Below, piece after piece: positions 34,298 to 35,688 of a stretch of 37,770 bases of DNA (the first letter of the stretch is position 1; every line of letters starts with the position of its first letter). The position numbers and the translations under genes were made by a program. Source of the DNA: a virus; IMG/VR virus record IMGVR_UViG_3300047157_000089, positions 1 through 37,770 of that record; one strand, written 5' to 3'. The notes below the pieces were generated by a model. That model was not told the DNA's origin. It ran no database searches and saw only the letters and a program-made list of their open reading frames with translations.

Positions 34298-34688
34298 TTG
34301 AACCACTTTGATGGAGTTCGTGAGACAGGTAACGGCCAATATTCATGCCGTTGCCCAGCTCATGAAGATAAGAGTGCATCACTAGGAATTAAGCAAGGAG
34401 ATGGTGATAGAATATTACTTAACTGCTTTGCTGGCTGTGATGTTAAAACAATATTAGAGAGTGCAGGACTGGAATGGAAAGACATACTCCCTGATAATAA
34501 ATTGTATCAGGCAGAGAAACATAGCTTTAATCCTTTTGCAGTATTAAAGATGATTGCGAGATGAAGTATTAATTATTGGCTTATCAAGTGTAGATATTAG
34601 AAATAATAAACCACTTAACGATATAGACCATGACAGATTATTAAAGGCTGTAGCAAATGTTAGAGATGCTTACAGTAAATGTAAATAG
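34298..34688 (+). CDS. CHC2-type zinc-finger primase-like protein, ~130 aa, frame-broken
   Basis: NHFDGVRETGNGQYSCRCPA, HEDKSASLGI and LLNCFAGCDVKTILESAGLE show the C-x-C-x2-H ... C-x4-C zinc motif of DNA primases. A frame change near 34560 joins the rest (DEVLIIGLSSVDIRNN..., ending DAYSKCK). No TOPRIM catalytic domain is present, so this is only the zinc-binding half of a T7 gp4-like primase. The start is uncertain: a TTG at 34298 opens the given frame, but I-Q-E-V-L upstream in frame looks like part of the protein. The TAG at 34686-34688 touches the 5' end of the tmRNA-like RNA. Confidence 0.7.
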
Positions 34689-34765
34689 GGGTGGTATTAG
34701 TTTTGACAGGCTGTAAAATTAAATTCGCAGACTGGACGAGGGTGCAACTCCCTCCCACTCCACCA
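34688..34765 (+). ncRNA. tmRNA-like minimal tRNA-like RNA, 78 nt, with encoded CCA
   Basis: Acceptor stem GGGGTGG (34688-34694) pairs with CCACTCC (34755-34761) in seven base pairs; the third is G-U, as in tRNA-Ala and tmRNA. A73 and CCA follow (34762-34765). The T arm is perfect: GAGGG, loop TGCAACT, CCCTC (34738-34754). After the acceptor strand comes TTTTGACAGG (34701-34710), like the conserved TTCGACGGG of tmRNA; no D stem forms. A 7-bp stem with one mismatch, CAGGCTG/CAGACTG (34707-34713/34728-34734), encloses a 14-base loop in the place of tmRNA helix 2. There is no anticodon arm, reading frame for a tag, or pseudoknot. It could be an alanine-accepting RNA, a tmRNA remnant, or an attachment site copied from a host ssrA. 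Confidence 0.75.
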
Positions 34766-34779
34766 ACTCGGAGACCAAA

Positions 34780-35688
34780 ATGGTAGCACAAACGCTAGAA
34801 GATATACTTATAACCGATAAAGAAATTTCTGGTTATATGGAAAAAAGAGATACAGGTGAACATCTTAAAATTAAAAGTCCTAATGAATACTTAGAAGATG
34901 TGAAGTCTTATTTTAATGATGACTTAACAAGTGGCTTAGGCTTTACCATTTCATAAAACTCATACAGACTTTAGAGTAAGAAGTGGTGAGGTAAGTATAG
35001 TCACTGGGTATTCAGGTCATGGTAAGTCTGCATGGCTCAACTATGTAATGTTGCATTTATTGCAACAACAGAAAAGACTATGATTGCATCTTTTGAGATG
35101 TTGCCTAAACAAACATTAGGAAGGATGTGTCAGCAAACAGGTGAGGCTATGCCTAACGATGATTACATTGCAGACTTTGTAAATAAATTAGAAAAAAGAT
35201 TGTATATGTATGACCCAGAAGGTGGAAATACTACAGCTAAAAAAGTGCAAGAGGTAGTTTACTATTGTGCTGAAAAGCTTGGTGTTAAACTTATGGTTAT
35301 TGATTCATTGATGAAGTGTGGTATACCATCAGAAGATTATGCTGGACAAAAAAGGTTTGTTGATGATTTGTGTGTGTCAGCTAGAGATTTAGGTATACAT
35401 ATATTCTTAGTGGCTCACAGTAAAAAAACAGCATCGGAAGATGAAGGAAGTAATAAATTTGATGTATCAGGTAGCTCGGATATAACTAACTTAGTTGATA
35501 ATGTATTATCTGTTCATAGAAACAAAAAGCGTGAGAGAGAGTTAGCCGAAGGTGGTATTGATGAAAAGATTATGAGTCAATCCCCATGTTCTGTTTACTT
35601 ACTTAAGCAACGTCATGGACAAGGTATTGAGACTAAGTGGGGTTTCGGTTATAAGCCTAAAACATTAGAATATACGGAGACCTGGTAG
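34780..35688 (+). CDS. replicative DNA helicase (DnaB/T7 gp4-type), ~303 aa, frame-broken
   Basis: RecA-fold helicase. It starts MVAQTLEDILITDKEISGYM with CGGAG upstream, directly after the RNA gene. After a frame change near 34950 it reads FRVRSGEVSIVTGYSGHGKS (Walker A, 35006-35029). A change near 35075 then leads to TMIASFEMLPKQTLGRM, KLMVIDSLMKCG (Walker B), HIFLVAHSKK, SGSSDITNLVDNVLSVHRNK and LLKQRHGQGIETKW. These are the DnaB-family motifs in order. Length fits a helicase domain without primase; the zinc-finger primase piece is a separate gene upstream. The C-terminal arginine-finger region (K-Q-R-H-G) is intact. Confidence 0.85.

Follow-up and report, generated by a model that had tools for sequence, protein, structure and literature searches.

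The window, the whole stretch of 37,770 nt analysed here, is an IMG/VR virus record. Contigs of related phages run across its ends, and we therefore regard it as a genome of about 37.8 kb that is either complete or circularly permuted. The locus of interest lies among genes for SSB, primase, helicase and NinB/Orf. An RNA gene fits tightly between the primase and helicase genes (Table 1): its first base, G1, is the final base of the primase TAG stop codon (34686-34688), and the helicase ATG (34780) is located 14 nt downstream of the encoded CCA. Relative to L011, L029, L031 and L038, the primase and helicase frames had small indels at ~34558, ~34927 and ~35070. The ribonucleotide reductase was split into two ORFs at window ~1463-1499. 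The broken frames in this record are either sequencing errors or real damage.

Table 1. Positions in the window of the RNA, its parts and the two adjoining genes.
Feature	Position	Strand	Evidence
DNA primase gene, indel-broken frame	34298-34688	+	PHROG 6088 DNA primase, E 2.9e-14; alignment to relatives
TLD-only tmRNA (mini-tmRNA), 78 nt	34688-34765	+	RF00023 48.2 bits; R1 49.7 bits; covarying orthologues
Acceptor stem 5' strand GGGGTGG, G3 opposite U70	34688-34694	+	7/7 pairs; orthologue changes at pairs 5 and 6 two-sided
D-like loop with U17 and G19 equivalents (SmpB contacts)	34695-34706	+	T16 and G18 (alignment) invariant in 9 orthologues; PMC8363625
H2 (P2) stub 5' strand CAGGCTG	34707-34713	+	Compensatory changes at 7/7 pairs in orthologues
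Apical loop TAAAATTAAATTCG, replacing tag and pseudoknots	34714-34727	+	Sequence mostly conserved within the window phage family
H2 (P2) stub 3' strand CAGACTG	34728-34734	+	Orthologue covariation; RNAalifold
GAC linker, A = A334 equivalent (SmpB pocket)	34735-34737	+	A49 invariant in 9 orthologues and 57/57 minis
T arm GAGGG-TGCAACT-CCCTC	34738-34754	+	Sequence pairing; orthologues
Acceptor 3' strand CCACTCC, A73, CCA	34755-34765	+	Sequence pairing; orthologues
DnaB-like helicase gene, indel-broken frame, intact stretch 35032-35688	34780-35688	+	PHROG 239 primase/helicase, E 2.8e-31; alignment to relatives

The RNA on the plus strand at 34688-34765 is a tmRNA cut back to the tRNA-like domain (TLD); in bacteria, tmRNA serves to release ribosomes that have become stuck. 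Using Rfam cmscan, the tmRNA model RF00023 matched exactly these positions, above its gathering score of 47, and was covered end to end (model span 1-374) with about 300 middle positions deleted. This was the sole Rfam match across the window. A second model, R1, was seeded with 12 other phage RNAs, excluding the window, and also detected it (E 3.4e-16 for RF00023 and ~2e-10 for R1, though E-values from covariance models are rough). With R1, tRNAs and the 3' ends of full tmRNAs mostly scored about 36 bits or less. ARAGORN detected neither a tRNA nor a tmRNA for this RNA, which is expected when both tag and anticodon are absent.

A first-pass annotation of the sequence had proposed a 78-nt, tmRNA-derived RNA of the alanine type, lacking both message and anticodon, and the end-to-end RF00023 match, the G3-U70 pair and the ARAGORN result agree with it. 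Its acceptor stem of 7 bp was likewise borne out, with all seven positions pairing, G3-U70 included, followed by A73 and CCA. The T arm had been called perfect; this holds for the stem, but the loop, TGCAACT, is unusual, the usual form being TTCRANT. The 43-nt spacer separating the acceptor from the T stem has no tag frame, pseudoknot domain or anticodon arm, as the annotation had it, but a helix within it had been overlooked: the spacer consists of the D-like loop and an H2 stub with six of seven pairs standard and a 14-nt loop. The RNA thus retains the covariance-model match of a complete tmRNA and lacks its tag frame and pseudoknots. It also lacks the anticodon arm and D stem of a tRNA, its middle helix being the covarying H2 stub, and its 5' acceptor strand precedes the 3' strand, in contrast to the order in permuted two-piece tmRNAs. 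The folding energy of the single sequence was weak (z -1.64), and the weight of the structural claim rests on the comparative evidence instead.

Related loci were gathered using the helicase gene, and not the RNA itself, as the query. The content of the primase/helicase junction varied among these relatives, which had a mini-tmRNA, a tRNA-Tyr, both or neither. Junction mini-tmRNAs were found in L296, L298, L300, L316-L320, L323-L325 and L328-L331, and many relatives of the window phage lacked one. The junction tRNA-Tyr was recorded with or without a mini-tmRNA (L316:694-776, L323:1358-1440, L299, L314, L332). The window RNA was identical to that of L029 at 78 of 78 positions, with flanks 82% identical, and it lay inside the longest stretch without variation in a five-way alignment.

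Nine distinct junction mini-tmRNAs retained all three helices. In their alignment 97.6% of cells were paired and 13 of the 19 pairs were altered on both sides, including acceptor pairs 5 and 6 and with compensatory changes at every one of the seven H2 pairs. The covariation score was 0.532; shuffled alignments gave 0.166 and slid versions no more than 0.130. RNAalifold, unaided, returned the identical three-helix fold from the orthologue alignment. Two junction mini-tmRNAs departed from the common form, as the T-loop consensus was lost in L300 and the T loop of L320 apparently had 6 nt. Some versions may therefore differ functionally.

Pattern scans of IMG/VR followed by a structural filter yielded 51 unique mini-tmRNAs, 34 of them below 85% identity. 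One of these (L281) was rejected since ARAGORN placed it within a full tmRNA, leaving about 33 non-redundant phage mini-tmRNAs. The scan patterns placed no constraint on the N of GACNGG or on the base preceding GGAC. These two bases formed Watson-Crick pairs, of all four types, in 34 of the 34 non-redundant sequences, while shuffling gave a mean of 9.3 and a maximum of 21 such pairings (20,000 shuffles). A model-based alignment of 57 mini-tmRNAs (L281 included) had 92.9% of cells paired and a covariation score of 0.556 versus 0.139 shuffled, but it was fitted to the structure and hence leans towards it. Acceptor pairs 4-7 varied with compensation. G3-U70 was present in 57 of 57, although the filter that gave the 51 sequences demanded G-U at this pair; two other filters did not, and the remaining full-acceptor matches from these were tRNAs or plainly unrelated sequence.

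Many other pattern matches were rejected as tRNAs, and those from genome contigs were mostly the 3' halves of ordinary full-length tmRNAs. When 19 virus records were compared with RF00023, all matches above the cut-off were mini-tmRNAs. In 398 Pseudomonadota genomes model R2 gave two weak matches of 44-46 bits, L375 and L376, and the latter was taken to be the acceptor part of a tmRNA in permuted form. A tRNA was present within 2 kb at 21 of the 51 loci. Neighbouring genes were otherwise diverse and included terminase, major head protein, primase, replication initiator and nucleases. In many mini-tmRNAs beyond the window family, H2 was closed by a small hairpin with A-rich flanks, AAACCGCGCAAGCGAC and AAAGCCGCACGCGGAAC (A3, A5; for example L240:806-887 and L258:4277-4358). 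One viral contig bearing a mini-tmRNA also had a Pistol ribozyme (L007:5883-5946; RF02679, 59.4 bits).

BLAST searches with the mini-tmRNAs detected unannotated copies in the Streptomyces phages BRock, LuckySocke, GiJojo, pSt2308, Tomas, Naboo, Riptide and Alone3, and another in the Stenotrophomonas phage Jojan60. A hypothetical protein was annotated over or overlapping the mini-tmRNA in GiJojo, which was known from BLAST only, and in Jojan60. Those of the Streptomyces phages with inspected surroundings were located in tRNA arrays, and that of Jojan60 directly upstream of the primase gene. Riptide possessed both a mini-tmRNA (L292:3299-3378) and, ~11.5 kb away, a full tmRNA with the tag ANSKFAFALAA (L292:14863-15131). 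Other isolate matches, such as Marzo and Bongo, were rejected because they were full tmRNAs. In the Tunturiibacter phage Tunturi_4 (L294:619-1380) a permuted tmRNA adjoined a gene for a possible second rescue factor, annotated as an RF-1 domain peptide chain release factor.

We conclude that the window RNA is a selected RNA and neither a chance match nor an att scar. An attachment-site copy or a decaying ssrA relic is very improbable. It is true that ssrA is a common integration site, and the full tmRNA of a relative could yield a mini-tmRNA through internal deletion. However, both halves are present and paired with compensatory changes, and integrases were absent from the scanned window proteins and from the 25 commonest families among 107 proteins neighbouring the mini-tmRNAs. 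In addition, Mycobacterium phage DS6A, whose RNA is of this kind, has a tRNA-Lys as its integration site (PMC10865867). The first-pass annotation had also argued against an attachment site from the presence of the 5' half, a reading upheld by these findings and by the occurrence of the RNA in many unrelated phages. The compensatory stem changes it had proposed to look for in related phages were recovered; absence from relatives, which it had considered damaging, does occur in some, yet those with the RNA show compensated changes. Its other alternative, a trimmed relic, is unlikely in view of the covariation.

Positions in the mini-tmRNAs were mapped to U17, G19 and A334 by E. coli tmRNA numbering. 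All three equivalents were kept in 9 of 9 orthologues. They were also kept in 55, 56 and 57 of the 57 mini-tmRNAs, respectively, although these wide-set figures are biased, since the scan patterns demanded parts of TNGAC and some also GGAC; the bias is lower for the orthologues, which were chosen by helicase, and for the Tomas and Riptide copies, found by BLAST. The equivalent of A15 was not conserved. In tmRNA, A15, U17 and A334 form the pocket for SmpB Trp122, the change G19C abolishes binding, and AlaRS recognises the G-U third pair (PMC8363625). SmpB contacts the elbow of the TLD, and a crystal structure shows TLD, SmpB and EF-Tu on the ribosome (PMC3968760). Most of the invariant features of the mini-tmRNAs are therefore those on which alanine charging and SmpB binding depend.

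These features bear on whether the window RNA could act as processing punctuation, a tRNA-like signal for RNase P and 3' nucleases to cleave the transcript between the primase and helicase genes. The tight fit between the two genes, with the primase stop overlapped, would suit such a signal, as would the tRNA-Tyr in the identical gap of some relatives. Punctuation would require neither G3-U70 nor the SmpB-contact bases, yet both are retained, and the contexts of mini-tmRNAs elsewhere are mostly unrelated; we give this explanation only a slim chance.

We suggest that the window RNA, as a TLD-only tmRNA with a short closed H2 helix, probably competes with the host tmRNA and damps trans-translation. 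It would be co-transcribed, probably, with the primase and helicase genes, then trimmed in the fashion of a tRNA and charged with alanine by AlaRS. The charged RNA would engage EF-Tu and SmpB, and the SmpB-bound form would enter stalled ribosomes and offer no resume codon, as an accommodated Ala-mini-tmRNA without a message cannot supply one. Host tmRNA would be outcompeted for SmpB and stalled ribosomes, and trans-translation would be damped during infection. Among the mechanisms considered, competition is the best supported because the charging and SmpB features are fixed, there is no message, and the TLD-only form of DS6A is reported in PMC11915505 to inhibit the endogenous tmRNA of E. coli; inhibition by the window RNA is suggested by analogy with that form. 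According to PMC4131195, a similar molecule perhaps titrates SmpB. Counting against competition are the full tmRNA alongside the mini-tmRNA in Riptide, which is unexpected under a plain anti-tmRNA role, the many relatives of the window phage without the RNA, and the lost T-loop consensus in L300.

The retention of charging and SmpB features would also fit a tagless rescue RNA, which with SmpB takes the nascent chain on stalled ribosomes while other factors clear the peptidyl RNA, so that translation is helped. Mitochondrial tmRNAs without a coding sequence (CDS) are conserved alongside SmpB and are thought to aid with incomplete mRNAs (PMC11915505), and mini-tmRNAs are frequent in phage tRNA arrays, as translation helpers are. 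On the other hand, an RNA with neither resume nor stop codon has no known release route, and the sole tested phage form is reported as a tmRNA inhibitor (PMC11915505). We consider a rescue role unlikely. We attach a small probability to a decoy outside the host tmRNA pathway. Its target might be, for example, a nuclease cleaving tRNA-like RNAs or a defence protein whose fold resembles that of SmpB. The presence of both RNAs in Riptide fits a role apart from rescue, and CoCoNuT defence systems have SmpB-like domains that are predicted tmRNA binders (PMC11090510), but no such system was tied to any host in the analysis, and conservation of G3-U70 calls for AlaRS, of which a pure decoy would have no need.

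The origin of the RNA may be seen in a relative, G401, whose helicase was 81% identical over the matched part. G401 had no junction mini-tmRNA; it possessed a full-length one-piece tmRNA with the tag ANDSMFALAA (L377:1057-1403, equal to G401:29556-29902, minus strand). The first 40 nt of this tmRNA aligned reasonably to the mini-tmRNAs of the window family, which makes it plausible that they descend from a phage-borne tmRNA through loss of its interior. The closest match in the phage collection was the 3' end of the Mosig tmRNA, identical to the window RNA at 33 of 35 positions, odd T loop included. This match had suggested a rejoined SAR11 two-piece tmRNA, an idea that was dropped as unnecessary after the one-piece tmRNA of G401 was found.

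With about 33 non-redundant versions, some from cultivable isolates, selection is evident on the parts read by AlaRS and SmpB. We tentatively propose, with a little less than even confidence, that many unrelated phages carry a selected, alanine-charged and SmpB-capturing RNA of ~80 nt, that trans-translation is a common target of takeover and that DS6A represents a widespread class. If mini-tmRNAs inhibit or redirect ribosome rescue, they would constitute an RNA-based strategy that recurs among phages and is directed against the quality control of bacterial translation, and they would form a natural collection of minimal SmpB ligands. The question is open to testing now, since unannotated copies are present in isolates such as BRock, Tomas and Riptide of Streptomyces and Jojan60 of Stenotrophomonas.

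In the open-access literature a TLD-only tmRNA has been described in one phage only, DS6A (tmRNA Website tmID 11587; PMC4131195, PMC11915505), and no wider phage class was reported there, although some of the isolate mini-tmRNAs may already be in the supplements of PMC11915505. Like the window RNA, the DS6A RNA is phage-borne, extends barely beyond the tRNA-like domain, has no tag frame and lies elsewhere than at an ssrA att site. DS6A is a different phage with a different host, it was set beside the window RNA by description, and the E. coli test concerned the DS6A form only. The CDS-less tmRNAs found in mitochondria of jakobids and oomycetes and in plastids of Mallomonadaceae share a tRNA-like domain without a tag frame; these are organelle-borne and thought to serve the ribosome rescue of the cell with SmpB (PMC11915505), whereas the window RNA is virus-borne. 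The full-length tmRNAs of G401, which belongs to the window phage family, and of the Pelagibacter phages Mosig and Melnitz are phage-borne like the window RNA, but they retain the tag frame, and those of Mosig and Melnitz are permuted and two-piece. As a kind, the TLD-only tmRNA is therefore already known from DS6A, and what is new here is its occurrence in a marine phage, how broad the class is, and the evidence of selection.
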